DNA of 64,000 nucleotides from NCBI RefSeq assembly GCF_009192945.1, contig NZ_NSET01000022.1:62001-126000 (forward strand), read 5' to 3'. Numbering within the stretch: the stretch's first letter is position 1; every line of letters begins with the position of its first letter. The stretch comes from Xanthomonas maliensis. Lineage in GTDB: Bacteria; Pseudomonadota; Gammaproteobacteria; Xanthomonadales; Xanthomonadaceae. The notes below the pieces were generated by a model. It saw nothing but the letters and a program-made list of their open reading frames with translations. It was not told where the DNA came from and ran no database searches. Position numbers and translations under genes: made by a program. Shown piece by piece: positions 1 to 18,191 of this stretch.

Positions 1-1
1 C

Positions 2-829
2 ACGGTGCAGCAAACCTCAGAGGCGATTACAAACATCAACGGTACGCTCTCGGCCTACCACAACGTGAAGGTCCAGACGACGATCAACGGCAGGGCATAC
101 TTGGCTGGCATCGGTGTCGGTGTGGACGGCAGTGGCGGAGTGGCGCAGAGCGAAATCGTCATGCTGGCCGACAGGCTGGTGCTGCTGAATCAGACGGTAA
201 ACGGGAAGTACTTCTACCCCTTTGAGCTCGTCGGCGGTGTTGCCTACTTCAACGCCGCAATGATTCGCGACGGCACAATCACCAATGCGAAGATCGGCGA
301 GGAGATCAAGTCCCTCAACTACCTTTGGGATGGCGCCAACGGCATTTACCGTGGTTGGCGCATTGGCAAAGACGGCACCGCGCAGTTCGGCGGTGACGTT
401 GAAGTGCGTGGCGACGTGTCTGCGCGCAGCATCACCGGTTCCTTTGAAACCTCGACCGCTGTCAGCTGGAGCGGTTCGATCAGCAACGGTGGCGTCAGCC
501 CGGTATTCAGGTTGGATCCGCCGCTTAACGCCACGCAATCACATCGACCTGAGTTAGTGCTGGCCCTGCAACTGAAGACCGGCGACGGGCAGGACGCTAC
601 CAGCTGCACCATTACTCTGCAGCGGCAGAATCCGAACAACCCTGCCGAGTGGTGGAATATCACCAGTCGCGAGTACGCGATTTTTAAATTCACCAACGCG
701 TCTATGGCTTTTATGTATCTGGATGACTGGACTGCGGTCGCAAACAATTTCCGTTTCGTCATTCAGCAGATCAACGGTCAGACGATCAGCCTAACCAATA
801 TCAATGGCCGTATTCGCGGCGCTCGCTAA
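2..829 (+). CDS. Phage tail tip protein J, C-terminal part (partial)
   Basis: The reading frame is open to the left edge, so this is the C-terminal 275 residues of a longer protein. The sequence (NAAMIRDGTITNAKIG, then a GWRIGKDGTAQFGGDVEVRGDV-like stretch) is the pattern seen at the end of lambda-type host specificity protein J (DUF1983-containing tail tip proteins), where repeated beta-rich segments lead into receptor-binding parts. It is followed 9 bp later by the tail fibre gene, the usual order in siphovirus-like prophages. A GTG at position 5 could be read as a start, but the protein begins inside a domain, so it is treated as truncated by the window edge. The family assignment is by motif pattern. 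Confidence 0.8.
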   Translation, partial: TVQQTSEAITNINGTLSAYHNVKVQTTINGRAYLAGIGVGVDGSGGVAQSEIVMLADRLVLLNQTVNGKYFYPFELVGGVAYFNAAMIRDGTITNAKIGEEIKSLNYLWDGANGIYRGWRIGKDGTAQFGGDVEVRGDVSARSITGSFETSTAVSWSGSISNGGVSPVFRLDPPLNATQSHRPELVLALQLKTGDGQDATSCTITLQRQNPNNPAEWWNITSREYAIFKFTNASMAFMYLDDWTAVANNFRFVIQQINGQTISLTNINGRIRGAR

Positions 830-838
830 GGAAATCAT

Positions 839-3472
839 ATGGCTGACCCTGGCTATCTCAGTAATGCGGAGCTCGCAAACAAAGTCGTCGCGCTGGTGCA
901 GAAATACAACATTTTCACCGGCGAACAGGTCGAGTTCTTCACGACCGATCAGCCCACCGTATCGATCAGTGTCACAGATGGAAGCACAATCACGGTTCCA
1001 TCCCTCAGTGCCATTTTGGCCGGTGGCGGAAGCGGGGGCATTGCGATCTTTGAATCAGTCGCCGAGGGCGTCGCCGCCGTCGGCGACGCGCAGCTGTTCT
1101 TCGTTACCATGGACTCTGGAAGCTATCTCGGGCTGTACCGTAAGTCCGGCCTGATTGGTGAGGAGATCGGGCGCTATCCGAGTCGCGATGCGATCGACGC
1201 AACGGCTGTGCATGCAGACATAGGCTCGGCGGTTGCGCATGCCGATGCGGTCATGCTGACGCCATTCAACGAGTTCGATCTCGATACGGTGGCCCAAGTG
1301 GACACAGCTGGGCGCGGCTTCAATACCGTAATGGACGAGACCGTCAACAACGTGACGCTGGCCAACGCCAAGGCCAATTTTCATTTCACCGTGCGCGACG
1401 ACCTGGCTCGACTGATCGGTGTGCGCACCGTGTGCGTCTGGACGCAGTGGTTTTCGGTCTGCAGCAGTGTCGACGGCAAAAACCCCGGCGTCGTGCAGCC
1501 TGCAATCAACGCCGATATCGCCAGCAAGCTCTCCAGTTCGACGCAATGGAGCGTCGGTGGAGTGGTTGCCTCCGGCGCGCTGCAGCTGCAGGGGTATGCC
1601 GGCGGCACGCAGGATGACGGTGCGCAGGTGCGGGGGATGAAACATCTGCTCGATCGTGGCTACGAAGTGGGCTTTGTCCCGATCGTACTCGGGCGGGTCA
1701 GCGGCAGCGGCCTGGCCGAATCCCAGTCCCTCGTTTGGCGCGGCTTCTTCCACTGGACGAGCACCGAGCTGTTCTCGCCGTGGCTAGACAGCTACAAGGC
1801 CATGCATGCGCACTACATCGCGTTGTTTCGTGGGAACGGCATCACGCCGGCCTGGTGGTATCTGGCTTCGGAGTTCAGTGCGATCGAGAAGTCAGCGCCG
1901 GATGCGCAATGGGCAATGTGGGTGGCAGCCTGCGCGCAGATTGCGGCTGACGTGCGCGCCGCCTTCCCGGAGTGCCGCATAACCTATGCCGCCAACTACA
2001 CCGAGTATGGCGTGGGCACCGATTTCCGCGTCGATGCCATTTGGACGCAGCCTAATATCGACGAGGTCGGCATCGAGTGGTACTTCCGGTTAACCTCTGG
2101 CGTTACGGGTAGCGCTGAGAGCGTCGTCGCTGGCCTTGCGGCAGGCGAAGACATGGACTACACCTACAGCACGTCTGACAGCAACCAGCGCAAGCTGAGC
2201 GGCTCCAGTGGGCAAGGCAAGGCCAATGAGACGCGCACGCCCATCGATGCCAGCGCCGGTATCAAGAACACCGTCGGTTTCTGGCAGGGCGCGCACTACG
2301 TGTCGAAGCAGGCTGGATTTATCGCGCAGGCCAGCCCGCAGGCCGGCTACGGCCGCAGCTACGACCCATATGGCCTGCCTGGGATGACCGGCAACGGCGT
2401 GGTGGCAGTGGCGCCCGGCCTGGTCTACCCGGGCACTTCGGGCGCGCACTTCCCGCCGGCCGGCACAGCGACCTACCTGCAATGCGACGGCACCGCCGGC
2501 GCCGGCTATGGCTTGTTCAAGACACCGACGTTCAGCGGTGGATCGCAGAGCGAGTGGCGTCTCGAGCTGGACTTCCAGATCAGCGGCCCGCCCTCGGGCA
2601 ACTACGCGCGCGTGCTGCGCCTGGGCGGGGCGATCGAGATACTGATCGACGGATTCCTGGTGAAGCTCGGCGTCGGTCCAGACGGAAACCAGTATTTCGC
2701 CGACCTGGGCACGCTCAACACAGCGGCCCACACGCTCGCCGCTGTGATGAACCTGGCCAGCGGCGTGCTGACCGTCGTCTACGACGGGGTGACATCCCAG
2801 TACACGATCCCAGCCGCCCAACGGCCGGCGATCCCGTCCAGCGCTGATTTCTTCGTCGGCGGCTACAACGCCAACAGCAACCTCACTCCGATGCGGGCTC
2901 ACCGCCTGCAGCTGACCTTCGTGCGCGACGGCGTGCGCTGGGGCGGCACTTTCCACTTCGACGACACCTATGCGGGCGTGCGCACGGCCTGGGTGCCCAA
3001 GATGAAGAAGATCTCTGCCACCGAGCTAGGGTATGCGTCGATCGGCGGCACCTGCGTCGAGCCTAGCCAGTTCGTCTACGCGGACCTGGGCAGCTCGGCC
3101 ATGTCGTTGCCGGCGATCCTCAACAGCACCACGCGGACGATCTACCAATCATTCATTGCGAAGGGTTGGAAGCCAGCCGAGGTGTACGCATCCTACGGGA
3201 GCAGCTTCAACTACGCCCCGTTCGAGCAGTTCTATGCGCTGCGCGAAACGCTGCGCTACATGCAAGCCTTGCAGCAGCGGGGCATGCTCAAGTCGATCTG
3301 CTTGTACAACTTGGATGCGAGGCCGGCCGCAGCGATGGCCGCCACGCTTGGGGGCGCGCTCTATTACTCCGATGCACCGATGTCCGTCTTCGGGCACTCG
3401 CTCAACGGCAAGCTGGCGGGCGGCAGCACGCTTTATCACGACCGGATACTGCGGAACGGCTCGATTCTCTGA
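839..3472 (+). CDS. Prophage tail fibre with TIM-barrel-like and LamG-like domains
   Basis: This 877-residue protein follows tail protein J and has a good ribosome site (AAGGAA). Residues 1-90 look like a short phage attachment region. Residues about 190-480 contain blocks such as WYLASEFSAIEK, ITYAANYTEY and IDEVGIEWYF. They resemble the GTA_TIM barrel domain of gene-transfer-agent tail proteins, which is related to glycoside hydrolases. Residues about 560-710 are beta-rich with a LamG/concanavalin-like pattern (FADLGTLNTAAHTLAAVMN), suggesting carbohydrate binding. The C-terminal 160 residues are not recognised. The likely role is host polysaccharide recognition, perhaps cleavage, at the tail tip. 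Tail location is inferred from context; enzymatic activity is speculative. Confidence 0.7.
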   Translation: MADPGYLSNAELANKVVALVQKYNIFTGEQVEFFTTDQPTVSISVTDGSTITVPSLSAILAGGGSGGIAIFESVAEGVAAVGDAQLFFVTMDSGSYLGLYRKSGLIGEEIGRYPSRDAIDATAVHADIGSAVAHADAVMLTPFNEFDLDTVAQVDTAGRGFNTVMDETVNNVTLANAKANFHFTVRDDLARLIGVRTVCVWTQWFSVCSSVDGKNPGVVQPAINADIASKLSSSTQWSVGGVVASGALQLQGYAGGTQDDGAQVRGMKHLLDRGYEVGFVPIVLGRVSGSGLAESQSLVWRGFFHWTSTELFSPWLDSYKAMHAHYIALFRGNGITPAWWYLASEFSAIEKSAPDAQWAMWVAACAQIAADVRAAFPECRITYAANYTEYGVGTDFRVDAIWTQPNIDEVGIEWYFRLTSGVTGSAESVVAGLAAGEDMDYTYSTSDSNQRKLSGSSGQGKANETRTPIDASAGIKNTVGFWQGAHYVSKQAGFIAQASPQAGYGRSYDPYGLPGMTGNGVVAVAPGLVYPGTSGAHFPPAGTATYLQCDGTAGAGYGLFKTPTFSGGSQSEWRLELDFQISGPPSGNYARVLRLGGAIEILIDGFLVKLGVGPDGNQYFADLGTLNTAAHTLAAVMNLASGVLTVVYDGVTSQYTIPAAQRPAIPSSADFFVGGYNANSNLTPMRAHRLQLTFVRDGVRWGGTFHFDDTYAGVRTAWVPKMKKISATELGYASIGGTCVEPSQFVYADLGSSAMSLPAILNSTTRTIYQSFIAKGWKPAEVYASYGSSFNYAPFEQFYALRETLRYMQALQQRGMLKSICLYNLDARPAAAMAATLGGALYYSDAPMSVFGHSLNGKLAGGSTLYHDRILRNGSIL

Positions 3473-3774
3473 GGGATCGAGTCGGTAAATTCTGATACCG
3501 AGGTGCCCATATTTCTGATACCTTTCGCACTGCGGCAGGGCCATCCTAAACATGCCGGACGCGGAGCCACGATGGCTGCTCACCCGCGTGGCGCCTGAGC
3601 AGTGCCAGGCCGGCGTCAGTTGGCCATTCTCGGCGTTGCGCAGGCTAGCAGAGGCGCGTCGCGTGGCGGGTCTGGTGACGGTCCCTAATAGGCAACCAGC
3701 ACTGTGACACTGGTCCGGTAATGACGGACGAGCTGAACCATAATTTGGTCTTTTACACCTAGGGGAGTTGCGTC
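3473..3774. other. Intergenic gap after the tail fibre
   Basis: About 300 bp without a convincing gene. It holds two direct copies of TTCTGATACC and, just before 3775, a purine-rich ribosome site (AGGGGAG). No factor-independent terminator is evident after the tail fibre stop. Confidence 0.5.
3490..3522 (+). repeat. Two direct TTCTGATACC repeats, 23 bp apart
   Basis: Identical 10-mers lie at 3490-3499 and 3513-3522. The spacing is about two helical turns. They could be a remnant insertion sequence end with multiple terminal repeats, or a protein-binding site. The sequence alone does not decide. Confidence 0.4.
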
Positions 3775-4215
3775 ATGGAACGGTGCCCAACCCAGCCTTC
3801 TTGGTTTGCCTACTACAAGGAAAACATGGAGGCCCTAGGCCTCGCCGCGCCGGGCCTCTACGGCTCCGGCACTGCGATTGTGGGGAGTATCAGCGCCATG
3901 CTCACCTTGGCAGAGAAGATGGGGCCTAAGGTCACGGTGCTTGAGCTCGTCAACGCCGGCACCAAGGTGGAAATCGCTACGACGATCGGCACGCTGGGCG
4001 CTTCCTGGTATCTGGGCGCCGCGGTGGGGAGCGCCGCGGTGGCCACGGGCCGGACCCTGTCCTGCGGCACCAGCCTGGTCGACGTCCTGGCCTACTCCAG
4101 CCGCAATGGTCTGAGTAGCGACCGCGTCCGCAGCATCCTGATTGCCCACCCTGAGATCTACGATTACAAGCGCCCGGGTCGTCGTTACTACGCTTCCCTG
4201 GCAGCCGCGGCATGA
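3775..4215 (+). CDS. Small membrane protein of unknown function in the prophage end
   Basis: This 146-residue protein starts after a strong ribosome site. It has a hydrophobic stretch at about 30-48 and another at about 74-106 (rich in Gly, Ala and Ser), followed by a basic C-terminal tail with KRPGRRYY. I do not recognise the family. Its position between tail genes and integrase, and its overlap with a second small membrane protein (ATGA at 4212-4215), fit a late phage cassette such as lysis, superinfection exclusion or an accessory gene. There is no catalytic motif to separate these options. Confidence 0.6.
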   Translation: MERCPTQPSWFAYYKENMEALGLAAPGLYGSGTAIVGSISAMLTLAEKMGPKVTVLELVNAGTKVEIATTIGTLGASWYLGAAVGSAAVATGRTLSCGTSLVDVLAYSSRNGLSSDRVRSILIAHPEIYDYKRPGRRYYASLAAAA

Positions 4216-4415
4216 GCGGCAAGACGAAGGACGGAGCGCTGTTGCTGATTGTGGGCCTGGTGGTCTCGGCGATCGCCTGGGCAGCCTCCCACTACATGGG
4301 TGAGGCTGCGATCTGGGTCTGGTCGGGCCTGATGATCCTCGGTGCGATCCTGCACCAGTTCGAGAAGCGTCGTAAGGCCTCCAAGCGACCACCCAATGAT
4401 CAGGCTAGTCACTGA
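4212..4415 (+). CDS. Small two-helix membrane protein, unknown function
   Basis: This 67-residue protein starts inside the stop of the preceding gene (ATGA), so translation is probably coupled. After a short basic start (MSGKTKDG) it has a hydrophobic helix at about 9-26 (LLLIVGLVVSAIAWAA) and a second at about 35-50, then a strongly basic, charged tail (EKRRKASKRPP). Size and topology resemble class II holins or phage-encoded membrane accessory proteins, but no family motif is visible and the function is not assigned. Confidence 0.6.
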   Translation: MSGKTKDGALLLIVGLVVSAIAWAASHYMGEAAIWVWSGLMILGAILHQFEKRRKASKRPPNDQASH

Positions 4416-4640
4416 GTGACCGCAGCCCGGGAACCGTACTCTGCCCGAACCGAGACCGATGGGTGCGCAAGCCGATGCGCCTCAGCAGGGCCGAGCCTGC
4501 ACCGATCGTCGCAGCCGGTGCGACCGGCACCGGTAGGATGCTGGCATGCCCCAGACGGTCCCGACATGCCATCCAGATCCGCCCACCGTGCTGCCCTGCA
4601 GCGATCCAGAGAGCCCTCCGTCATTGCGCCCGAAGGCGTG

Positions 4641-4898
4641 ATGTTGCCGGACTTGCCTGCCGGCTTGCACTGGCTGAACCCTGTGGTGGGAGAAGCTACA
4701 GACCGGGGCCAGTGGGACTTGTTGCGCGTTGGCCCTGGCGGTGCGGATGTGGTTGCGAGTGTCCGACTCACCGAGTCTGGCCAGGCCGAGCTATCGCTGC
4801 GGATCCCCGGGAATGACTTGGTGCAGCCGCCAGCAATGCTGCCGATCGCTCATGCTTTCGAGGTGGCGGCCGAGTTTGGGCGCAAGCCGGCCAGGTAG
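4641..4898 (+). CDS. Small hypothetical protein next to the integrase
   Basis: An 85-residue frame starts with MLPDLPAGLHWL and has an alternating hydrophobic pattern (WDLLRVG, ADVVASVRL, AELSLRIPG) that looks like a small beta-rich fold. This makes it more credible than the other frames here. GAAGG lies a few bases upstream of the ATG at 4641. An alternative ATG at 4566 would add 25 low-quality residues. The 3' end overlaps the end of the convergent integrase gene by 49 bp. The family is not recognised; phage or island accessory gene is the best guess. Confidence 0.4.
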   Translation: MLPDLPAGLHWLNPVVGEATDRGQWDLLRVGPGGADVVASVRLTESGQAELSLRIPGNDLVQPPAMLPIAHAFEVAAEFGRKPAR

Positions 4899-6028
4899 TT
4901 GGCCCAAGCCTGCATCAATATCCGCCGCTTGTCGATGAGCGCACCGCGCCGGTAGGCGGCCTCAGCCTTGTTCCGTATGGCGTGCGCCAGCGCCATCTCT
5001 ACCACTTCGCCTGGGGTGTCCTGAGTCTCGGCGGCCCAGTCGCGAAAGCATGAGCGGAATCCGTGCACCGTGAAAGGCAGGCCGAAGCCCTTTGGGGCCG
5101 GCTTCTGCAGTAGGTAAAGCATGGTGTTCTCGGACATCGCGAAGGGCGGTAGCTTTCGATTCAGGCTCTGCAGGATCGCCACCGCTTCAGTAGACAATGG
5201 AACCACATGGTCGCGGGCTCCCTTCATTCGTGCCGCTGGGATGGACCAGATGCCGGCGGCCAGGTCGAACTCAGACCAGCTCGATCCGGTCACCTCTTCG
5301 GTACGCGCCGCCGTCAGGATCGTGAACTGCAGTGCGCGCCGGCTGCGCGCATCCCGCTCTCGCAGGCGTGCCATGAATGCCGGCGCATCGCAGTAGGGCA
5401 TCGCCGCATGGTGCTGAGGCTTGCGCACCTTGGCCGGCTTGGGAAGGAGGTTGTCGAGGTGCCCGCGCCAGCGCGCCGGGTTCTCGCCTTCGCGCCGGCC
5501 ATGCACTCGCGCCCAGTCCAGCACGCGCTCAATGCGTCCACGCACCCGCGAGGCTGTCTCGGTCTTCGTGTTCCAGATCGGGCGCAGGCATGCCATGACC
5601 GCCGCGGTATCGATCGCGCCGACCTGGGTGTCGCGCGGCGGCCCGTAGTCCTTCAGCGACTGCGTCCATTGCTCGGCCTGCGCATCGTTCTTCCAGCCTG
5701 ATCGCTGGCTGTCTATGAATGCGTCCGCGCACTCGCCGAACGTCATGCCGGTTGCCCGGGCCGATTGCCGCTCTGCGATTGGATCCTGGCCCGCGAGGAG
5801 CAAGCGGCGCTGCGCGAGCGCCAACTGCCGAGCATCCTGCAACGTCACCAGCGACGTCGAGCCGAGACCCATCTCGCGCAGGCGGCCAGCGCGCCGATAG
5901 CGCAGTACCCACGACTTGGCGCCGCTCGCTTTCACCAGCAGGTACAAGCCGCCGCCGTCGGCGTGATAGCCTTCTTTGGTAACGGTCTGCACGGTCCTGG
6001 CGCTTAGCCGGTTGATCGGCCTGGGCAT
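4850..6028 (-). CDS. Prophage tyrosine integrase (DUF4102-type)
   Basis: Site-specific recombinase expected to integrate and excise the element. From the ATG at 6028 it is 392 residues, normal for the P4/DUF4102 class. The N-terminus (INRLSARTV, then HADGGGLYLLV) is the typical arm-binding domain. The catalytic domain shows Arg242 (TAARTEEV), His322-x-x-Arg325 (HGFRS), His349 (ALAHAI) and nucleophile Tyr359 (AAYRRG), so the enzyme looks intact. An upstream ATG at 6064 would add MAKYGTKYGTLL, encoded by a 12-bp tandem repeat. I prefer 6028 because family members start near MPRxINRL. The tail genes to the left and the AT-richer cargo to the right put it at an element boundary. Confidence 0.92.
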   Translation of the reverse strand: MPRPINRLSARTVQTVTKEGYHADGGGLYLLVKASGAKSWVLRYRRAGRLREMGLGSTSLVTLQDARQLALAQRRLLLAGQDPIAERQSARATGMTFGECADAFIDSQRSGWKNDAQAEQWTQSLKDYGPPRDTQVGAIDTAAVMACLRPIWNTKTETASRVRGRIERVLDWARVHGRREGENPARWRGHLDNLLPKPAKVRKPQHHAAMPYCDAPAFMARLRERDARSRRALQFTILTAARTEEVTGSSWSEFDLAAGIWSIPAARMKGARDHVVPLSTEAVAILQSLNRKLPPFAMSENTMLYLLQKPAPKGFGLPFTVHGFRSCFRDWAAETQDTPGEVVEMALAHAIRNKAEAAYRRGALIDKRRILMQAWANYLAGLRPNSAATSKA

Positions 6029-6035
6029 CAGGAGC

Positions 6036-6058
6036 GTCCCATACTTTGTCCCATACTT
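6036..6058. repeat. Tandem GTCCCATACTT repeat in front of the integrase
   Basis: GTCCCATACTT occurs at 6036-6046 and again at 6048-6058, a 12-bp period just upstream of the preferred integrase start. It could be an integrase arm-type or regulatory site, or part of the attachment region. If translation starts at 6064, it would encode a repeated KYGT. Confidence 0.5.
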
Positions 6059-6072
6059 CGCCATGCGATTGG

Positions 6073-6152
6073 GTGAGACAAGATGGTATGGGGTGGTTGT
6101 CTCACAGCCTGATACGCCTAGGTCTTGGGAAGGCATGAGGCTAGGTGAGACA
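6073..6152. repeat. GTGAGACA repeats (direct and inverted) upstream of the integrase
   Basis: GTGAGACAA at 6073-6081 and TTGTCTCAC at 6097-6105 form a perfect 9-bp inverted repeat. A further direct GTGAGACA lies at 6145-6152, and a shorter GTGAGAC at 6419-6425. Such clustering in front of an integrase suggests operator, excisionase or integrase arm sites. The binding protein is unknown. Confidence 0.5.
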
Positions 6153-6713
6153 GCAATATCGGCCACTCTCTCCGCCATATCTATACGCCATTGAACCCGC
6201 TAAGCAGTTGATTTGCAAAACCATTGGTTGGTGCCATCCGGCTTGGCGTACTGTCTCCTAAGTCATCCGCTTGCCGCCAGTCGTTTATAGATTATTTTCT
6301 AATGAAATAATAATTCCAGGTGATGTGCGCCTTAGTAAACGATGATCCCCAGGTCGCGATTCGTTCGGTCCCGGGTCCTTGCTCCCAGTTACTTCGTTAC
6401 TTATCCCGCCTCACTGAAGTGAGACGCATTTTTAGCCGATATATTCACGCTCGCAGTACAGATGGGGTAACGAATGGCTTATCCAGACGATGAATGATTG
6501 CCGTTTCCTAGTAGCCGCCGTCGCAAAACCTGCAGGAAGACCGGGGGCGGCAACTAGCCATCTCAGACGCTGCTGCCGTCTGGTAGCGGGGAGGAAGATT
6601 TGGTTTTTTACTCTAGGTTAGCGGTGGCTAATCGGCCGTCGCCGCGCTAGTCAGTTGCCGGTAGTCTTGCTAACCTTCCGGCGCAGCTATCTGAATTCAA
6701 AGGGGAGGCAATC

Positions 6714-7982
6714 TTGCGTACGTTAGAAGTTCACTCTTTTTCCTGTATCGATACCGCACTACTGGAATTGACGCCGCTCACCGTCATTATCGGTCCGCAA
6801 GCCAGTGGCAAAAGCGTTATATGCAAGCTATTCTACTTCTTCAATCGATTTCCTTTGCTAATTCCTGGTTGGGTGGGTGACGGAAGCTCCGCAGCTGAAA
6901 TAAAAGAGCGCCTGATCGAAGAGTTTTTGCAGTGGTTTCCCCCATCGACTTGGGGGACAAAGAAATTCGCAATTAAGTTTAAAACTGGCCAATATTCGAT
7001 AAATGTTGATCGGGGACGTAAGGCGAGAAACGGGCAGTATAGTTGCAAAATTGAGCTTTCTGAGCCTTTTGAAAGGTTAATTGAGGCAACGGTTGAAACC
7101 TATATCAAGGCCAAGAAGCAACATGTTGCTGGTCAGGAGCAGTTTGACGTTCACTGGAGCCTGTTCGACTCCCTTAGAAAGGGAGTGGAGGCTGCGTTTG
7201 GTGCGGATCTCCCTGAGGAGCCTCTTTATATCCCGGCTGGTAGGTCATTCTTCACGAGCGTGGGGAAGATTGTGACCGCCTTCGATGATCAAACGATGCT
7301 GGATCCCGTTGTCCATAACTTCGGTAGGTTGGTTACTGCGCTCCGCGAAGGTAGCTTCTACAGAGACGCAAAAAGTCAGCTCCTTCGGAAGATTGAAGAG
7401 CTAATGGGCGGTAAAATGGTGCAAGAGCGAAACAAGCAGTACTTTGCCACGGATGACGGTCGCAATATTCCCTTGAGTGCGCTTTCCTCAGGTCAGCAAG
7501 AGTTGCTCCCATTGCTAGATGCTCTTGGTTTTGCTCTTTGGAAGGAGGGGCCGGCGCTGGTGTTTATTGAAGAGCCTGAGGCTCATTTGTTCCCGGATGC
7601 GCAAACATCGCTTGTTGAGATGTTTGCTCGAATTAGTGAGTCTCGAAAGCGTAAGGTTGGCTCTAAGGGGGCGATCTCAAGGAAAATTGTTCTTACAACC
7701 CATAGCCCTTATGTCCTGGCAAAGATTAATACGCTCATAAAGGCGGGCCAGCTTGCAGAGTCGTTGCCTGCTCAAGCACGCAAATTATTGGATTCGATTG
7801 TACCTGCTGACGCGCGAATAGCGCCTAGGCAGGCTACAGCATACGCTATTCAAAACCGGACACTTGTGCCTATCATGGATGAATACGGTCTTATCAATGC
7901 GGACTATATCGACGAGGTATCTGAGAGGACAGGCATTGAGTTTAGTGACCTTTTGGACTTGGAGGCTCGCTATGTCCGCTAA
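6714..7982 (+). CDS. SMC/ABC-like AAA ATPase (OLD/PtuA-like), probable defence protein
   Basis: This 422-residue ATPase starts at TTG with a strong GGGGAGG site 6 bp upstream. Walker A is GPQASGKS at 27-34. The signature-like LSSGQQELLPLL is near 257-268, Walker B FIEEPEAHLFP near 284-294 and the switch TTHSPY near 328-333. This order defines the AAA_15/AAA_21 ATPases that partner nucleases in phage defence (OLD, Septu PtuA, PARIS AriA). No TOPRIM domain follows; only about 85 residues come after the switch motif, ending in an acidic segment. The stop overlaps the downstream small gene by 11 bp, so the two are probably a functional pair. The AT-richer codon use differs from the host genes. 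Function is inferred from family and context. Confidence 0.85.
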   Translation: MRTLEVHSFSCIDTALLELTPLTVIIGPQASGKSVICKLFYFFNRFPLLIPGWVGDGSSAAEIKERLIEEFLQWFPPSTWGTKKFAIKFKTGQYSINVDRGRKARNGQYSCKIELSEPFERLIEATVETYIKAKKQHVAGQEQFDVHWSLFDSLRKGVEAAFGADLPEEPLYIPAGRSFFTSVGKIVTAFDDQTMLDPVVHNFGRLVTALREGSFYRDAKSQLLRKIEELMGGKMVQERNKQYFATDDGRNIPLSALSSGQQELLPLLDALGFALWKEGPALVFIEEPEAHLFPDAQTSLVEMFARISESRKRKVGSKGAISRKIVLTTHSPYVLAKINTLIKAGQLAESLPAQARKLLDSIVPADARIAPRQATAYAIQNRTLVPIMDEYGLINADYIDEVSERTGIEFSDLLDLEARYVR

Positions 7983-8418
7983 TGCTTGTGCGCCCCATCG
8001 AGAGGTTACAAATGTTTCTAAAGTTAAAGTTGTTGAGAATGGCAAGTCTGCGGTTTTCTTGAACCCTAAGAAGAAGAAATTTTTCATAACTCGAGTTGAC
8101 GGTGGAGTTGTCAAGCACGAGCTTGCAGCCGATTATGTCGTCACGCAGCACGAGGTCGGAAGTCTAATCGTTGAGCTCAAAGGAAAGGAGGTCGGGCGTG
8201 CCGTTGAGCAAGTTGTCGCAACTGCGGAGTTGCTCAAGAAGTGCAGCGGTAGCCTAGGCACGCAAAAGGTAAGTGCTCTGGTAGTGTGTACTCGCGTGCC
8301 GCGGCAGGATTCAAGGTCACTTCGTCTTCAAAACGCTTTTCAGCAAAAGCACCGCGCGCGACTAAGGATTGTAGCGTCAAACGTTGAGCATAACTTCGCA
8401 GCCCTGTTCGGAGCGTGA
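7972..8418 (+). CDS. Small predicted PD-(D/E)XK nuclease partner of the ATPase
   Basis: A 148-residue protein starting at the ATG inside the end of the ATPase gene; a longer frame from 7864 would be an artefact of overlap. It contains Asp54 (AADYVV), then Glu68-x-Lys70 (LIVELKG) and Gln80 (AVEQ) at the start of a helix. This D...ExK...Q arrangement after beta strands is the hallmark of small PD-(D/E)XK nucleases of the Holliday-junction-resolvase-like type. Translation coupling with the ATPase suggests a toxin/effector plus sensor arrangement. I do not recognise a named family. It could also be a non-catalytic relative, but the key residues are all present. Confidence 0.65.
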   Translation: MSANACAPHREVTNVSKVKVVENGKSAVFLNPKKKKFFITRVDGGVVKHELAADYVVTQHEVGSLIVELKGKEVGRAVEQVVATAELLKKCSGSLGTQKVSALVVCTRVPRQDSRSLRLQNAFQQKHRARLRIVASNVEHNFAALFGA

Positions 8419-8562
8419 TGTTTCGGGATCGCCAGCACTTGGTGGCGCTGCGCTCGTACTCATGCTTACTAGCTCCAGGGCATCGTAGTCAATGGCGCTG
8501 ACTCAGCGTCCGCTTACCGACTGAAAACTTCCGTGGTCAACTTGATGAAGGGGTACTAACAG

Positions 8563-8919
8563 ATGCCGTCTGAAAAAGTCGCTAAGATCTTGCGTAAACG
8601 GGGACTTGCCGAGGCGGATATCCTCTCAATGACAGATCAACAAGCATGGGACCATGTGTACGCCACCGCTCCACCGAAGCGTGAGAAGGGGCTGGAGATT
8701 TGCTTCACCGGCTTCACTGATGCCGAAAAATCAGAATTGGCAGAGATGGCCAAGAGCAACGGATTGACGGTGGTGACTAAGGTAACCAAGGATTGCTGGA
8801 TCTTGTGTGCCGGTGCTGCTGCCGGTGCGAAAAAGATCGAAGAGGCAACTCAGCGCAATGTTCGAATTTTAGAGCGTCATCAATTTGAAAAATTCTTGTC
8901 GACGGGCGAATGGAACTGA
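8563..8919 (+). CDS. Stand-alone BRCT-domain protein
   Basis: This 118-residue protein has an N-terminal helical part (EKVAKILRKRGL, about 1-40). A single BRCT-like domain follows at about 45-115: LEICFTGF, then a helix, LTVVTKVTKDCWILCAG, then KKIEEATQRNVRILERHQFEKFL. BRCT domains bind phosphopeptides or DNA ends and are usually fused to NAD-dependent ligase or exonuclease domains. Here there is no partner domain. It lies 144 bp after the ATPase-nuclease pair in the same AT-richer stretch and may be cargo of the same island. Whether it acts with the pair is unknown. Confidence 0.75.
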   Translation: MPSEKVAKILRKRGLAEADILSMTDQQAWDHVYATAPPKREKGLEICFTGFTDAEKSELAEMAKSNGLTVVTKVTKDCWILCAGAAAGAKKIEEATQRNVRILERHQFEKFLSTGEWN

Positions 8920-8931
8920 TCGCCCCATGCT

Positions 8932-8963
8932 GCATGATTGCTTTCATGCTTGCTATGATTTTT
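8932..8963 (+). terminator. Hairpin with T run after the BRCT gene
   Basis: GCATGA and TCATGC form a perfect 6-bp stem at 8932-8949 with a 6-base loop. A TTTTT run follows at 8959-8963 after a short spacer. It lies between convergent genes. The stem is short and the T run is offset, so this is only a weak candidate. Confidence 0.35.
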
Positions 8964-9078
8964 CAATTTAGAGGTTCTGATTCCGTTCGGATGATGCTTC
9001 GGCTGTTCCATTTTGCTGGGTAATGATCGGCTCGATGAATAGTGCATGGCCTATTGAGTTCAATACTACAAAGCAGCT

Positions 9079-11082
9079 TTATTTGTAGAGGTTGAGGTAC
9101 GAATCCCACAGGTCCTTGAGGAAGCTCTTGTCGGGTTTTGTTTCGATCTTTTGCATCGGGCGGCTGTTCATGTAGTGCTTGGCGAGGACCAGGGAGCCGT
9201 AGGCGCCTTCGAGGGCGCTTTCGGCCATGCTGTCGTGCATGTACTTCAGGAAGCCGGGGTAGAGCGATTCGACTTCGGGTTGGCGCTTGCCGGGGTTGTT
9301 CCAGATCCAGTACAGGGCCTGTCCCTGTGGGTCGGAGACGAAGATGTTCGGGGCGACTTCGCCGTCCAGCTGCTTCTTGGCCTGTTCCATGGTGAAGGTG
9401 TCGACCGAGCGCGCATTGCGCTCCAGGTAGCGCAATTCGGATGCGAGCTTGTCGTAGCGCCCCTTGGCCGCCGGATACTTGGGGGCGCTGGTCAGCCATG
9501 AGCCGGTCTGCTCGGTGGCGGTCGTGCCGAACTGTTCGTACCACATCCGCAGCCACTGGATGTAGATGATCATGTGGCCCTTCATTTGCCCTTGTATATC
9601 CTTGGGCAAAGTTTTTACCACTATCGGCTCAGGCGGAACGAAGCACTGCGTTTGCTGATCAGTCGTGCGCCGGTCAGGAGGGGCGTAACTGCAGACATAA
9701 GGAAGATTGAGCCGGATTATTTCAGGGGTTATTTCCTGTGTGCTCTCAACAAGGCTCGTTACAGCGTTTCGATAATTTCTCTGAAATATTTTAACCTCTT
9801 CGCTAATTTCAAATCTCGCGTATAGGTCGGGGCTATCTGCTTTCATGTTCTGAAAGCTTGACATTGGAATGCCTGCGCCATAAGCCTTGTTATACATTAA
9901 CTGCAATGGGTAACGTGCAAGCCCATCAAGTACACCTGTATCTTCCGCGCCTGCGCCGCCGCCTACATCAACCTGACTTCCAGGGAACAAAATTTCCTGG
10001 CGACTTCCTGTTCCTGTCTGATTTCCTCCGATAATGGTCAATGGCTTGTAAAAGCGAAGTTCGTGCGCAGCAGCGTAATGCACGCAACGCTCCACTTCTT
10101 TGAGGAGCTTCATCTCCGAGGAAACTTTGTTACTGAGAGGGATGAAGCCGGTCAGTAGGTTGTCGTCGTAACGATTTGCGACGCAATCGAACAATCCCAT
10201 AAAGCGGATCTTTACCTCCACACCTTCATAGTTGCCTCCTCGACAAATATCGTCGATAAGCATCTTGCTGAAGGCCAACGCGATTCCGCCTCCCATGTCG
10301 TAGCCGAAAATTGCTACATTAATTCGATGCACCGGTAGCTTACGCTTTGCCAGTGCAAAAGCGGCCTTGAAGTCGGTTTCTGCCGACTTCAATCTTGTAT
10401 CTACCCCCGTATTGAAGAGTGCTGCACTCAACGCCGAGTCACGTATCAGGCCTACACTCTCCGCAGCGTATCCTGCTGTGTTCTTTGCAACAGCCGCTCC
10501 TGCCTCCTTGGCTGCTCGCCACGGATGCTTGACGACATCTCGCCATAGGGCACGCCATTCTTTCCGAAGTGTTTTCCAACCCTCCTTCGCTACGGTCGTT
10601 ACGGGCTTCTGGATGGTCCTGGCGATCTTGCGGCCTTGCTTTTTCGCGCGTTCGGCTAATTGATTTGCTGTCCAGGCTGCGCGGCTAGCATAGGATTTGT
10701 CGCTCAAACGCTCGCTTTCTTTCCAAACATCCATCACCGCGCCTTTAGCGGTGTCCTTGGGAGTAGATGCAACCTTGTCTTTGAGCTCTTTTTCAGCTTT
10801 TCCACCCAGTGCTTCTGTCAATGCTTCAGTCTCAGGGTCGTACTCAGCACCAAGGCCTGGATAATAGAAGGCTCTAGCGCCTTTTGCCGTATCTTCGATC
10901 AACGCTGCATGGATTTTTGCAATATTGCTGGCAACGCCATATTTATCTGAAAAGCCAAAGCCATCGAAACAAAACGTCGTCCAAAGCACTTGTTGGCATG
11001 CTGGGCAGCGCTGCTCTGCTTCAACCTTTGTGCGGTCAAGCGAAGCGGCTCTATATTCAGAATTTATATCTTGGCTACTCAT
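9079..11082 (-). CDS. T6SS Tle/DUF2235-like effector with altered catalytic motif
   Basis: From the ATG at 11082 (one base after the upstream stop) this is 667 residues. The order CFDGFG (near 40), LGAEYDP-type motif, FGYDMGGG (259-266), MGLFDCVA (near 298) and FPGSQVDVGGG (near 367-377) matches the Tle1/DUF2235 alpha/beta-hydrolase phospholipase effectors. A lysine- and tryptophan-rich helical insert lies at about 120-215. The nucleophile elbow reads G-Y-D-M-G, with Asp262 where family members usually have Ser. The usual H-S-D-V-G-G-G reads Q-V-D-V-G-G-G. Position after vgrG, a DUF4123 adaptor and lipoproteins indicates a VgrG-delivered effector. Whether it is still a lipase is open: an Asp nucleophile, another substrate, or a binding-only toxin are possible. 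Confidence 0.8.
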   Translation of the reverse strand: MSSQDINSEYRAASLDRTKVEAEQRCPACQQVLWTTFCFDGFGFSDKYGVASNIAKIHAALIEDTAKGARAFYYPGLGAEYDPETEALTEALGGKAEKELKDKVASTPKDTAKGAVMDVWKESERLSDKSYASRAAWTANQLAERAKKQGRKIARTIQKPVTTVAKEGWKTLRKEWRALWRDVVKHPWRAAKEAGAAVAKNTAGYAAESVGLIRDSALSAALFNTGVDTRLKSAETDFKAAFALAKRKLPVHRINVAIFGYDMGGGIALAFSKMLIDDICRGGNYEGVEVKIRFMGLFDCVANRYDDNLLTGFIPLSNKVSSEMKLLKEVERCVHYAAAHELRFYKPLTIIGGNQTGTGSRQEILFPGSQVDVGGGAGAEDTGVLDGLARYPLQLMYNKAYGAGIPMSSFQNMKADSPDLYARFEISEEVKIFQRNYRNAVTSLVESTQEITPEIIRLNLPYVCSYAPPDRRTTDQQTQCFVPPEPIVVKTLPKDIQGQMKGHMIIYIQWLRMWYEQFGTTATEQTGSWLTSAPKYPAAKGRYDKLASELRYLERNARSVDTFTMEQAKKQLDGEVAPNIFVSDPQGQALYWIWNNPGKRQPEVESLYPGFLKYMHDSMAESALEGAYGSLVLAKHYMNSRPMQKIETKPDKSFLKDLWDSYLNLYK

Positions 11083-11083
11083 G

Positions 11084-11596
11084 CTATCGATCTCGATTCG
11101 CAGTTGGGGGGAGTTCATCAGCCCCCATGTCATCGACCCACTGAAGTGATGCCGTTCCATCTCTGCGGAAATAAACTCTGAAATAGCGTGATTTACTTGA
11201 CTCAGGCTGAGGGATTTTTACGCGGATCGTGTGCTCCTCTGGCTTTATATTGGCATCGTACTCAGCTCTGGTCCGTTCGAATCTCCAGTAGAGATTTACT
11301 TCTTTTCCGGGCGTAACTTTGCAGCCACAGGAAAATTTTCCGCCGCCGCCCCATGGATATCCTTCTGATCGCTTCGGAGGATTGCCGAAACAGCCAGACT
11401 TTGCTTCGCTGTCCAGCCAGAATTGATAAATCTGTCTGTCGTACTCATTATATCCTGAAACGCATACCGTTCTCGATTGCGAAAATCCGTCGGTGCATCC
11501 CGCTATCATTGTGGCTGAGATGAAGGCGATGGGCCCTGCGGTTCTTTTGAGTAAATTTTTGAGGTGGAAATACTTTTTATTAGTGCTGTGCATCAT
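11084..11596 (-). CDS. Lipoprotein, copy 1 of a five-gene tandem family (probable immunity protein)
   Basis: This 170-residue copy lies directly before the effector gene. A start at 11596 (or 11593) gives a signal sequence ending in the lipobox MIAGC at about residue 30-34. The mature part has SGYNEYDRQIYQFW, a WGGGGKFSCGC block, IRVKIPQPES and DGTASLQWVDDMGADELPP, shared with the other four copies. The pattern resembles DUF3304 lipoproteins found beside T6SS lipase genes. Periplasmic lipoproteins encoded next to Tle effectors commonly act as Tli-type immunity proteins; here that is inference. Its start overlaps copy 2 by 14-17 bp, a looser junction than those between the other copies. Confidence 0.8.
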   Translation of the reverse strand: MMHSTNKKYFHLKNLLKRTAGPIAFISATMIAGCTDGFSQSRTVCVSGYNEYDRQIYQFWLDSEAKSGCFGNPPKRSEGYPWGGGGKFSCGCKVTPGKEVNLYWRFERTRAEYDANIKPEEHTIRVKIPQPESSKSRYFRVYFRRDGTASLQWVDDMGADELPPTANRDR

Positions 11597-12059
11597 TTTT
11601 ATCCTGTTTTTTAGTCGGAGGAAGCTCGTCAGCTCCCATATCATCGACCCATTGCAGCGATGCGGTCCCGTTCCTGCGGAAGTACACCCTGAGATAGCGC
11701 GATGTGCGGGACTCAGGCTGAGGGATTTTTACGCGAATCGTATGTTCTTCCGGCGTGGCATTGGCATCGTATTCGGCCTTGGTCCGTTCGAATCGCCAAT
11801 AGAGGTTAACCTCTTTACCTGGGGTGACATTGCAGCCGCACGAGAACGCGCCGCCGCCGCCCCAGGGGTATGGATTCTCCCTGCGAGGCGGGTTGCCAAA
11901 ACATCCGGATTTTGCTTCGTTGTCCAGCCAGAATTCATGGATATGCCGTTCGTACTCGTTATAGCCGGTGACGCAGACTGTTTTCGAGTGCGAGCCATCG
12001 ACGGTGCAGCCCGCTAGAAGCACAAGCGCAATGCATGGAAGGGAGGTTTTTACGCTCAT
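11580..12059 (-). CDS. Lipoprotein, copy 2 of the tandem family
   Basis: A 159-residue lipoprotein with a compact signal peptide and lipobox LLAGC at 14-18. The mature domain repeats the family landmarks: TGYNEYERHIHEFW, WGGGGAFSCGC, EEHTIRVKIPQPES and NGTASLQWVDDMGADELPP. It is most like copy 1 in the segment ending IKPEEH/TPEEH. It starts in a 4-bp ATGA overlap with copy 3, consistent with one transcript. It probably resides in the periplasm and is a candidate immunity protein; each copy may match a different effector allele. Confidence 0.8.
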   Translation of the reverse strand: MSVKTSLPCIALVLLAGCTVDGSHSKTVCVTGYNEYERHIHEFWLDNEAKSGCFGNPPRRENPYPWGGGGAFSCGCNVTPGKEVNLYWRFERTKAEYDANATPEEHTIRVKIPQPESRTSRYLRVYFRRNGTASLQWVDDMGADELPPTKKQDKNDAQH

Positions 12060-12538
12060 GGTGCATTCCCCCGCTGGCCCACGCGCTGATCCGTCGGTGC
12101 AAGCTCATCAGCGCCCATGTCATTGACCCATTGCAGCGATACGGTTCCATTGTTCCTAAAGTAGATTCGGAAATAGCGTGAGGTGGCCGATTGCGGTTGC
12201 GGGATTTTGACCCGGACAGAGTGCTGCTCCGGTGGCTTGCCGGCATAGAAGTCCTGTTTGGGCAATACGAAGGTCCACTCCAGGTTGACTGTCCGGCCAG
12301 GGGTGACGCTACAACCGCACGAGAATTTGCCGCCTCCGCCCCAGTTCTGCCCGGGAGCACGCCCGGAAGGATTTCCGAAGCAGCCAGCCTTGGATTCGTT
12401 GTCCAACCAGAACTCGTGAATCTTTCTGTCGTATTCGTTGTAGCCGGTGACGCAGACGGTCCTGGCGTGCGATAGCCCGTTCGAGCAGCCTGCCAGTCCC
12501 GCAACGGCGGCCACCGCTACGACTCTGGAAAGATTCAT
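12056..12538 (-). CDS. Lipoprotein, copy 3 of the tandem family
   Basis: A 160-residue lipoprotein, lipobox GLAGC at 14-18. It keeps GYNEYDRKIHEFW, WGGGGKFSCGC and DMGADELAPT. The most diverged segment relative to its neighbours is TFVLPKQDFYAGKPPEQHS, where the others have an Arg/Glu-rich FERTxAEYDA stretch. That segment may carry partner specificity. ATGA overlaps join it to copies 2 and 4. Periplasmic immunity is the likely role, inferred from context. Confidence 0.8.
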   Translation of the reverse strand: MNLSRVVAVAAVAGLAGCSNGLSHARTVCVTGYNEYDRKIHEFWLDNESKAGCFGNPSGRAPGQNWGGGGKFSCGCSVTPGRTVNLEWTFVLPKQDFYAGKPPEQHSVRVKIPQPQSATSRYFRIYFRNNGTVSLQWVNDMGADELAPTDQRVGQRGNAP

Positions 12539-13074
12539 GGCAATTCTCCCGAGCGAGGCATGATGGCCGGTTGGGCTGTCGGGTTGGGCGTTGGCTGTAC
12601 GGATGCACTCGGGTTCCGTACGTCTGGCGTCGGCGCTAGCTCGTCCGCTCCCATGTCATCGACCCACTGCAGTGATGTGGTCCCGTTCTTGCGGAAGTAG
12701 ACCCTGAAGTATCGAGAGCGACTGGATTCCGGCTGCGGGATTTTGACCCGAATGGTGTGCTCTTCTGGCTTCAAGCCGGCGTCATATTCCTGCCTGGTTT
12801 GCTCGAAGGTCCATTGCAGATCGACGACTTTGCCCGGAGTGACGTTGCAGCCGCAGGCGAATTTTCCTCCGCCTCCCCATGGATTTCCATCGGATCGCCC
12901 AGGGGGATTTCCGAAGCATCCGGATTTTGCTTCGCTATCCAGCCAGAATCTGTAGATCTGCCTTTCGTACTCGTTGTAGCCAGTAACGCAGACGGTTCTT
13001 GCCTGCGGCAGACCGTTCGTACAGCCCGCAAGTAGCGCAATGGTGGCGCCAGCCACGACGTGCAACGGCTTCAT
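12535..13074 (-). CDS. Lipoprotein, copy 4 of the tandem family
   Basis: A 179-residue lipoprotein with signal sequence MKPLHVVAGATIALLAGC and the family core GYNEYERQIYRFW, WGGGGKFACGC and GTTSLQWVDDMGADELAPT. It carries a longer Pro-rich C-terminal tail (about 25 residues, TPNPTAQPAIMP) than copies 1-3. The tail ends where the next gene begins and may be a flexible extension or drift. Overlap with copy 5 is 4 bp. Same inferred periplasmic immunity role. Confidence 0.8.
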   Translation of the reverse strand: MKPLHVVAGATIALLAGCTNGLPQARTVCVTGYNEYERQIYRFWLDSEAKSGCFGNPPGRSDGNPWGGGGKFACGCNVTPGKVVDLQWTFEQTRQEYDAGLKPEEHTIRVKIPQPESSRSRYFRVYFRKNGTTSLQWVDDMGADELAPTPDVRNPSASVQPTPNPTAQPAIMPRSGELP

Positions 13075-13736
13075 GGTGCCGCTCCTGGGCGAGGCCTGGG
13101 GGCGTGCTGGACTGTCAGTGCTGGCGCTGGCTGTGCGGGCGACTCCGGCGCTTGCTTGTCCGGTGTTGGGGGGAGTTCGTCCACTCCCATGTCATCGACC
13201 CATTGCAGCGAGGCGGTGCCGTTCTTGCGGAAGTACACCCGCAGATAGCGCGAGCTGCGCGATTCGGGCTGGGGAATCGTCACCTTGAGGGCAAATTCTT
13301 GCGCCTTTTTGCCGGCGTCGAAGTCCTCGACCGATTGGACGAAGGACCATTGCAGCGTCACCGATTTGCCTGGAGTCACCTTGCAGCCGCAGGCGAATTT
13401 TGCGCCGCCTCCCCATGGATCTCCATCGGATCTGCCAGGAGGATTGCCGAAGCATCCGGACTTCGACTCGTTATCCAGCCAGAACTCATGGATCTGCTTT
13501 TCATATTCGTTGTAGCCGCTCACGCACACGGTCCTCGAGTGCGACAGGCCATCCTTGCAGCCAGTCAGCAGTGCAAGCAAGGCGAGGAGTCCATACCTGA
13601 TGCAGGTCGTGGCGGTCTTGGAGTGGCGATGGCGGGGGCGTGCGGTTGTGGCTGCGAGCGCGCGGCGAGTGACCGGCCATGCTGCGGCGCGCATGTCGCT
13701 CGTCTGCTGAGGCGGAGTGGAGATACGACACGGCAT
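13071..13736 (-). CDS. Lipoprotein, copy 5 of the tandem family
   Basis: The first copy of the array in transcription order, 221 residues from the ATG at 13736, which lies 4 bp after the adaptor stop. The lipobox LLTGC is preceded by an unusually long N-terminal stretch rich in Arg and Thr. An internal ATG at 13694 is an alternative, and no closer start exists. The core shows GYNEYEKQIHEFW, WGGGAKFACGC and DMGVDELPPT (Val instead of Ala), so it is the most diverged at the family signature. The Pro/Ala-rich tail of about 30 residues resembles that of copy 4. Likely periplasmic immunity lipoprotein. Confidence 0.75.
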   Translation of the reverse strand: MPCRISTPPQQTSDMRAAAWPVTRRALAATTARPRHRHSKTATTCIRYGLLALLALLTGCKDGLSHSRTVCVSGYNEYEKQIHEFWLDNESKSGCFGNPPGRSDGDPWGGGAKFACGCKVTPGKSVTLQWSFVQSVEDFDAGKKAQEFALKVTIPQPESRSSRYLRVYFRKNGTASLQWVDDMGVDELPPTPDKQAPESPAQPAPALTVQHAPRPRPGAAP

Positions 13737-13740
13737 GCGC

Positions 13741-14616
13741 TCACTCCTCCGTCGCCGGGGCGGCGTCTGCCCAGTCGTACAGGTGCCCGCAGAGGGCATC
13801 GACATCGTCGCGATAGGCGTGCACGCGGTCGGCCAGTTGCGTCTGCCAGGCGCTGTCGAAGGCTTTCGCGATCATGGCGGCCGCGCAGCGGTAGAGGGTC
13901 GCTTCGTCGTCCAGGTCGGCGTTGTGCAGTAGCTGCCTGAGCAGCGACAGTTTGTGCCAGGTCTGGAAAGGATCGGCATCGGCGGGGAGGGCGCCATTGC
14001 GGCGCAAGTCTGCGGCAATGCGGTCTTCCAGACCCAAGCTGTCCAGTTGCTGCAATTGCGCTGCGTTCAAGCTCACGCGTGTTGCGGTCGGTGTGGGAAG
14101 AGTATCGGTGGCCGGGCGCAGCGTCTGCACTTGCCCCTGGCGATCGATCAGCATCCAGTGCTGCGCGCAGCCGAGGACGTTGGCGAGTGCGCGCGCCTCC
14201 AGGACCTGCGGAAGCCGTTGCAGCACCGTCGCGTCGTAGAACCGCAGCAGGCCGCGTTTGCCGCCTGGCAGGGTCACGTCGGCGCGCTTGGCGAGGGCGG
14301 TGGTCAGTGCGGCGATCGGCAACGGACTGACCAAGGCGGTGAAGGCGAACGGCCGGCGCGGTAGGTGCCGGTTCAATAATGCATCGACCCAGGCGGCCTC
14401 GTAGTCCATCAGCAGGGCGCACACGGCGGGATCGATGCTTTCCGGATGATCGCGCAGCACGTTGTGGACGCGCTGTTCGGCGATCATTGCTTTCCATGGC
14501 ATCACGTTGATGGGCAACTGGGCGGCGTCCACCAGCAGGAACACGCCGCTGTCGTGCCGATGCCGGTGCGCGGCGAGCGAGGCGTCCCATCCGGCGAACA
14601 GTGGCGTCATCGGCAT
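13741..14616 (-). CDS. DUF4123 T6SS effector adaptor (Tap/TEC type)
   Basis: DUF4123 proteins load a cognate effector onto VgrG before firing and are not themselves exported. From the ATG at 14616, which shares one base with the vgrG stop, the protein is 291 residues. Features of the family are the early [10 protein letters not shown] strand, [20 protein letters not shown], then [17 protein letters not shown] and a helical C-terminal half ending in WADAAP. A longer frame to 14736 overlaps vgrG and is rejected. Its place directly after vgrG and before the lipoproteins and effector is the standard effector-module order, so the effector at 9079-11082 is probably its client. Confidence 0.88.
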
Positions 14617-17369: not shown

Positions 17370-17603
17370 GGAGGCTCCTTGGCTGCAACGAGAGTGTGGC
17401 CGCCATGCCGAGCAGGGCGGCGTGCTGCCGGGCAGACGCGACCGGGCGAGTCCGCAGTCTACACGGTGTCAGTAGCGCTGACATCGTGCGGCGGCGTGCA
17501 GCGGGAGATGCATCACTCTTCCGCATGCTCCGCGCTATGCCCGGATTTGCATGCGCCTCATCGGATAGCGGTTAGTGTCGTTGCGCATGGTCAGGAGGAC
17601 ACG

Positions 17604-18191
17604 ATGGTCCAGGTCGAACACAACGATACGCAGCTTTCAGATGGCGATGCGCCGACGCTGTGGACGATCGGGCATTCCACGCGGACGTGGGAGGACTTCG
17701 TTGCGTTGTTGCGTGCGCATGGCTTGGCGAGGTTGATCGATGTGCGGCGGTTTCCGGGGTCGCGGCGCTATCCGTGGTTTGCCAGCGCTACGATGGCGTC
17801 GGCGCTGGCAGCGGAGGGGGTCGGGTATCTGTGGTTGCCGTCGTTGGGCGGGCGGCGCAAGCCGCAGCCGGGCTCGCCCAATGGAGCGTGGCGCACCGCG
17901 GCGTTTCAGGGCTATGCCGATCATCTGACCAGTGCGGCGTTTGCGCAGGGTTTTGCCCAGGTGCAGGCAGCGGCAGCACGCACACGCACGGTGGTGATGT
18001 GCGCCGAGGCGCTGTGGTGGCAATGCCATCGGCGCTTGATCGCCGATCTGTGGACGCATCGCGGCGGGGCGGTGGTGCATGTGATGGGTGATGCCGCCAC
18101 CCAGGTGCATCCGTTGCATCCCCAAGCGCGTGCGCGCGGGCCGGATCTGATCTATCCGCCGCTGCAGGAAGGGCTGTTTCCGTCGCAATAG
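17604..18191 (+). CDS. DUF488 family protein
   Basis: A 195-residue protein starting 5 bases after a perfect AGGAGG. Family landmarks are TIGHSTRTWEDFVALL, LIDVRRFPGSRRYPWF, the GGRRKP loop and the VMCAEALWWQCHRRLIAD segment, where family members keep a CxE...CHR pair of cysteines. The biochemical role of DUF488 is not settled; some members occur near oxidative or metal-stress genes. It faces away from vgrG across a 234-bp gap and stands alone here. Confidence 0.85.
   Translation: MVQVEHNDTQLSDGDAPTLWTIGHSTRTWEDFVALLRAHGLARLIDVRRFPGSRRYPWFASATMASALAAEGVGYLWLPSLGGRRKPQPGSPNGAWRTAAFQGYADHLTSAAFAQGFAQVQAAAARTRTVVMCAEALWWQCHRRLIADLWTHRGGAVVHVMGDAATQVHPLHPQARARGPDLIYPPLQEGLFPSQ

Follow-up and report, generated by a model that had tools for sequence, protein, structure and literature searches.

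What does an ABC-type ATPase do in the company of a separate protein of only 148 residues, encoded by an overlapping gene and situated beside a prophage integrase gene in Xanthomonas maliensis? The two genes lie at positions 6714–8418 of the window, the whole 64,000-nucleotide stretch of contig NZ_NSET01000022.1 (positions 62,001–126,000) analysed here. A first-pass annotation had proposed a two-gene defence system, pairing the ATPase with a small PD-(D/E)XK nuclease, that matched no system it could name. The functional class probably stands, and we consider it likely that the two genes form an anti-phage system of the WonAB kind, in which an ATPase sensor would license a small nuclease effector and infection would be aborted. 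The lack of a nameable counterpart does not stand, since WonAB answers the description and the candidate PDC-M29 also matches, its second model weakly; the kind is already known, experimentally for one likely relative (WonAB) and as an unpublished database candidate (PDC-M29).

Anatomy and conservation of the gene pair

The ATPase gene (6714–7982, + strand) encodes an ABC/OLD-type protein of 422 amino acids from a TTG start, which agrees with the start of the relative in loci L020/L125, and a likely ribosome-binding site, AAGGGGAGG (6700–6708, +), can be read 5 nucleotides before it. The small gene (7972–8418, +) begins with ATG, overlaps the ATPase gene by 11 bp and encodes a predicted PD-(D/E)XK nuclease of 148 amino acids and 16.1 kDa. 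Its likely ribosome-binding site, GGAGG (7961–7965, +), still lies inside the ATPase gene, near its end, and this points to coupled translation of the two genes. The reading frames, their overlap, the ATPase motifs and the residues D54, E68-x-K70 and Q80 of the small protein, all named in the first-pass annotation, were confirmed from the sequence.

Relatives were compared as 28 distinct pairs, that of the window and 27 others, the latter being 22–43% identical to the window pair in the ATPase and 15–44% in the small protein. In all 28 ATPases the following residues are retained: K33 of the Walker A motif GPQASGKS (residues 27–34; 6792–6815, +), R177, residues S258, S259, G260 and Q262 of the ABC signature-like LSSGQQE (residues 257–263; 7482–7502, +), E287 of the Walker B motif VFIEEPE (residues 283–289; 7560–7580, +) and H330 of the switch or H-loop TTHSPY (residues 328–333; 7695–7712, +). 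In the small protein, the predicted metal-binding D54 (codon 8131–8133, +) and the predicted catalytic E-x-K motif E68-L69-K70 (8173–8181, +) are likewise found in 28/28, with Q80, on the helix after the E-x-K strand (8209–8211, +), and P110 in 27/28, so that the residues on which the nuclease reading had been based are indeed kept in homologues. Such conservation across divergent pairs indicates that the motifs are under constraint and did not arise by chance. A second invariant aspartate, D43 (8098–8100, +; 28/28), lies 11 residues ahead of D54, and with both present the active site could be a modified one. The distance matrices of ATPase and small protein are closely correlated (r = 0.873; none of 5000 permutations reached this value, the maximum being 0.341), as expected if both genes travel together.

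The pairing itself is equally constant. Searches that took as query the small protein, alignments built on it, the relative at L016 or the PDC-M29B model gave 17 distinct pairs besides that of the window, and in 18/18 the ATPase gene lies directly upstream on the same strand, with a junction of −53 to +2 bp (starts chosen mechanically); unlinked genes, the arrangement that would have spoken against a two-gene system, did not occur in relatives. The genes stay side by side in chromosomes, plasmids and unrelated prophages. Rows that repeat another were dropped (L002 and L003, equal to L007 and L009; L125, equal to L020; L129, equal to L018), as were L134 and L136, which differ little from L133, and L006, a YraN gene and not a relative.

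The pair is patchily distributed. The small protein was found in 3 of the 199 relatives searched, namely the window's own genome and two that belong to different genera of the same family; at a threshold of 1e-15, the ATPase occurs in these same three. Among 274 genomes of the class, the small-protein alignment A4 matched that of the window only, and the search of phage records gave a match in 1 of 50,697. Plasmids yielded nothing with the small protein of the window or of L014, nor with the ATPase at 1e-20, and viral contigs yielded nothing with the small protein of the window or of L016. Among 398 genomes of the phylum, PDC-M29B retrieved one true pair (L005) and the unrelated YraN at L006, and missed the window's gene.

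A scan of viral contigs started from the ATPase gave 45 loci, 16 of them with an ATPase at E ≤ 1e-60; its profile drew in part on L018 and L020, and L129 and L125 therefore match by construction. The small protein lies downstream in 14 of these 16 loci, including L135 and the nearly alike L133, L134 and L136; the other 29 loci have a weaker ATPase (E > 1e-60) and no small-protein match. At L135 (3992–5702) the ATPase reading frame stops early, after 366 amino acids, and the small gene follows about 190 bp beyond, possibly through decay or a sequencing error; the interrupted frame kept this locus out of the 28 pairs. In the remaining two loci, L141 (3089–4984) and L143 (3086–4992), related ATPases are followed by proteins of 197 and 202 amino acids of other sequence with E-x-K and Q patterns, and effector exchange within the ATPase family is possible.

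Predicted folds and comparison with known systems

The structure model of the ATPase is closest to PtuA of Septu and AriA of PARIS, as the first-pass annotation had anticipated in assigning it to their class, and this predicted-structure comparison supports placing it, as an ABC/SMC-type ATPase, in the fold class of PtuA and AriA. Among PADLOC-DB models, PDC-M29A (4.7e-23) ranked second behind an AriA model (1.2e-25). At 373 and 304 positions, the AriA models are almost exactly as long as Pfam AAA_15 (374) and AAA_21 (304), so the AriA match looks generic. The ATPase also matched PD-T4-4_A (4.9e-15); the small protein matched PDC-M29B only, at 9.4e-5, which is weak and was taken without PADLOC's own cut-offs (whether the library holds a PD-T4-4_B model was left unchecked).

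The fold of the small protein is seen less sharply. Its structure model has a pLDDT (predicted local distance difference test) score of 85.5, places the named residues as in a PD-(D/E)XK core and is compatible with that core at middling scores only. Foldseek by itself left the fold unsettled, and the VIA-align lists say nothing against families that they do not include. No significant family was found in Pfam or NCBIfam. Sequence searches of solved structures, up to E 10, returned ribosomal S15a only, which we judge to be chance (best E 0.21), and the profile of alignment A4 matched no solved structure. Of two families compared with the small protein by profile, MmcB (DNA repair, according to Pfam) scored best; in the column-shuffle test, which used 27 of 30 YraN and 19 of 20 MmcB loci, global alignment gave nothing useful. 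With its invariant residues retained and its model compatible, the proposed PD-(D/E)XK assignment is probable: on the model a protein lacking the core is unlikely, and from these features we infer a nuclease.

The closest described counterpart is WonAB, an ABC ATPase with a 16.1-kDa PD-(D/E)xK protein from the WASA-1 prophage of Vibrio cholerae, for which anti-phage activity has been shown (PMC12137116, PMC12409358). WonAB is reported to abort infection, with translation stopped and DNA left intact, and defence requires both genes, including K34, R182, E300 and H333 of WonA and K71 of WonB; WonA ATPase mutants also lose the WonB protein (PMC12137116). The same report, of 2025, assigns WonAB to a wider family, not yet characterised, that joins ABC-ATPase sensors to nuclease effectors, and refers to a class proposed in silico before it, ‘OLD-ABC ATPase + Novel REase’ (Krishnan et al. 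2020, via PMC12137116). It gives the accessions AWB73975.1 and AWB73976.1 for WonA and WonB and SHI83489.1 and SHI83462.1 for a pair from Anaerovibrio, and for WonAB an interface at the C-terminal region of the ATPase is predicted. The window pair resembles it as a two-gene operon of an ATPase and a nuclease (a predicted one in the window) on mobile or variable DNA, with an effector of 16.1 kDa in both and K70 of the E-x-K motif standing against WonB K71; K33, R177, E287 (or E286) and H330 are likely motif counterparts of the four WonA residues. The host lineage differs, and the comparison with WonA and WonB was by residue numbers and mass only, not by sequence. The pair thus looks like a divergent new member of this kind, an ABC ATPase with a separate PD-(D/E)XK effector, and not WonAB proper. 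At the viral-contig locus L133, the small protein (145 amino acids, 16.1 kDa) has the WonB mass and a lysine at the WonB position, K71; its ATPase is 28% identical to that of the window and its small protein 35% over 66 residues. The landmarks of the L133 ATPase fit WonA inexactly, and we do not claim that it is WonAB.

The second counterpart, PDC-M29, was not found named in the literature searched, and PADLOC describes its PDC systems as unpublished candidates (PMC11811056). Likeness rests on the adjacent genes matching PDC-M29A and, weakly, PDC-M29B. The L005 pair matches both models far better (ATPase against PDC-M29A, 5.3e-123; locus against PDC-M29B, 2.4e-41) and is 25% and 15% identical to the ATPase and small protein of the window.

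Systems with similar ATPases differ in their partners. In Septu and retron I-A the effector PtuB is an HNH nuclease (PMC11555353), whereas the window's small protein has an invariant D and E-x-K and no HNH family among its Pfam, PADLOC and NCBIfam matches at E ≤ 1; Septu is therefore rejected for want of an HNH partner. A retron is rejected as well, no reverse transcriptase being seen by eye among nearby open reading frames (no profile search was made) and no Rfam match occurring at 4400–14000. AriB of PARIS is a DUF4435/TOPRIM protein, and the small protein has no DUF4435 (PF14491) match at E ≤ 1, so that PARIS is rejected by partner domain. Lamassu is nearer in one respect, its ATPase being SMC/Rad50-like and some of its effectors carrying PD-(D/E)XK domains; however, LmuB has about 650 amino acids with coiled coils and usually occurs with LmuC as well as LmuA (PMC10586767), whereas here the ATPase has 422 amino acids, the longest helices of its model span 23 residues and there are two genes.

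Proposed mechanism and rival explanations

In the mechanism that we propose, the ATPase would serve as sensor and the small PD-(D/E)XK-type nuclease as effector; made as a translationally coupled pair, they would work as one complex, silent in the absence of infection. A trigger arising from infection would lead to an ATP-dependent rearrangement of the ATPase that licenses the nuclease, which would then cut nucleic acid and halt growth before phage is made. Two observations lower the confidence in this reading slightly: the search of the genome with PDC-M29B missed the window's own small gene at 0.001, and profile probabilities were low. By analogy, host tRNA or rRNA would be weakly favoured over DNA as the target, because WonB caused no genomic DNA degradation and translation stopped. 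PtuAB of retron-Eco7 depletes tRNA-Tyr whereas Septu PtuAB is reported to cut DNA (PMC11555353), so that the target cannot be read from the ATPase class. It is conceivable, and we put it forward only tentatively, that a broad family combines a PtuA/AriA-class ATPase sensor with several unlike E-x-K effectors (the 16-kDa protein and the 197- and 202-residue proteins of L141 and L143), and that the small protein is a ribonuclease which disables host translation.

The ATPase might instead load the nuclease on DNA ends or other structures, so that phage DNA is cut directly and the host does not sacrifice itself. For WonAB, phage DNA is still replicated, with a defect of 2.7-fold, and overproduced WonB leaves genomic DNA intact (PMC12137116), which makes direct attack rather unlikely here, although WonAB is another member of the kind. 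A toxin-antitoxin pair, in which the ATPase is merely an antitoxin holding a toxic nuclease, would suit the compact operon with its overlap, and in PARIS an ATPase hexamer does hold AriB, releasing it when a phage protein binds (PMC12409363). WonB, however, is toxic only together with WonA and harmless when overproduced alone, so WonA is needed for activity (PMC12137116); deleting either PARIS gene is reported to be non-toxic and to abolish defence (PMC9122126), and the catalytic motifs of the ATPase are invariant in the collected pairs. Together these points make a simple toxin-antitoxin pair improbable.

The least probable of the alternatives is a function outside defence, in a mobile element or in repair, for example as an MmcB-related nuclease of recombination or repair. 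The profile score of MmcB and the position of several copies near ordinary cellular genes would agree with it, but the occurrence in so few relatives, the presence of the pair among genes of different phage types, the defence ATPases as the closest folds and the matches to both PDC-M29 models, one of them weak, all argue against it. A WonAB-kind system acting by abortive infection is thus the reading that we prefer.

Genomic setting, hosts and significance

The pair was also thought to belong to a mobile locus by virtue of its composition and the neighbouring integrase. The AT-richer composition is real (guanine-plus-cytosine content 0.50–0.51 over 6001–9000, against 0.63–0.74 from 14 kb on), and the integrase gene (4850–6178, −) does adjoin the pair, but the pair lies just outside its presumed element. 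The last 15 bases of tRNA-Ser(TGA) (contig 25230–25319) recur at window 6163–6177, at the 5′ end of the integrase gene, so that contig 25305–25319 is the likely left attachment site (attL) and window 6163–6177 the likely right one (attR) of the neighbouring prophage. The attR copy is not part of the system. The integrase is the last gene before attR and most likely belongs to an element inserted in tRNA-Ser(TGA), about 42.9 kb long, that ends before the pair; since the likely attR lies between, the pair is outside this element and the prophage is rejected as its carrier.

All 15 stretches fetched from relatives have the attachment core once, at their tRNA, and neither a second core nor its last 9 bases occurs in window 1–19000. 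The window from 18601 on recurs in 5 of the 15 stretches, 2.8–14.1 kb behind the same tRNA, with no match within the length fetched in the other 10. This places the pair, together with the BRCT and lipase/VgrG-like genes described below, in a variable stretch bounded by tRNA-Ser and conserved sequence, and an earlier element at this tRNA could have brought the pair in.

Downstream, 8563–8919 (+) encodes a 118-residue protein. It has a BRCT domain (6.4e-9), matches PDC-S48, a PADLOC candidate, at the C-terminus of the latter (6.4e-11) and was rejected as a third component, having no relative at 0.01 among the open reading frames of 27 other loci. Beyond it, 9079–17369 (−) holds a lipase-like reading frame, tandem paralogous lipoprotein reading frames (11084–13805) and a VgrG-like reading frame, which by eye may be an effector of type VI secretion and its duplicated immunity genes.

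Elsewhere the pair occurs in Chiayiivirga, Stenotrophomonas, [Pseudomonas] boreopolis, Pseudoxanthomonas, Sphingomonas, Methylobacterium, Rhizobium, an acidobacterial metagenome-assembled genome (MAG) and Bacteroides, with plasmid copies in Bacteroides and Muribaculaceae; the Chiayiivirga and boreopolis copies have the same sequences as those in two genomes of the window's family. The survey of neighbourhoods that had been suggested finds it, in several unrelated viral contigs, in the company of phage genes. At L020 it adjoins a P22-like portal gene, the four other neighbours scanned having no named family, and at L018 it sits among Mu-like head genes. Genes for baseplate (L126), integrase (L128), repressor (L131), replication-nicking (L133), transposase (L132 and L133), methyltransferase (L138) and terminase (L140) proteins lie nearby in other contigs, and neighbours at L127 and L130 match phage families of unknown function. 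Several chromosomal copies are near cellular genes (SRP54, pyruvate dehydrogenase E1 and a UvrB/helicase-domain protein). On a Bacteroides finegoldii plasmid the pair lies within a glycosyltransferase cluster (L021, 3656–5360), and in Chiayiivirga flava a 602-residue protein with an Mrr_cat nuclease domain is encoded about 1.9 kb behind it (L007, 8332–10140, +).

If the collected pairs belong to the WonAB family, as we think they do, that family spans proteobacteria, an acidobacterial MAG, Bacteroidota, plasmids and unrelated viral contigs. The pairs supply invariant candidate catalytic residues and a compact member of about 1.7 kb, and they make testable the question of what a PD-(D/E)XK effector of this class cuts. 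Should that be tRNA or rRNA, under the control of an ABC ATPase, it would be unusual chemistry for the fold.
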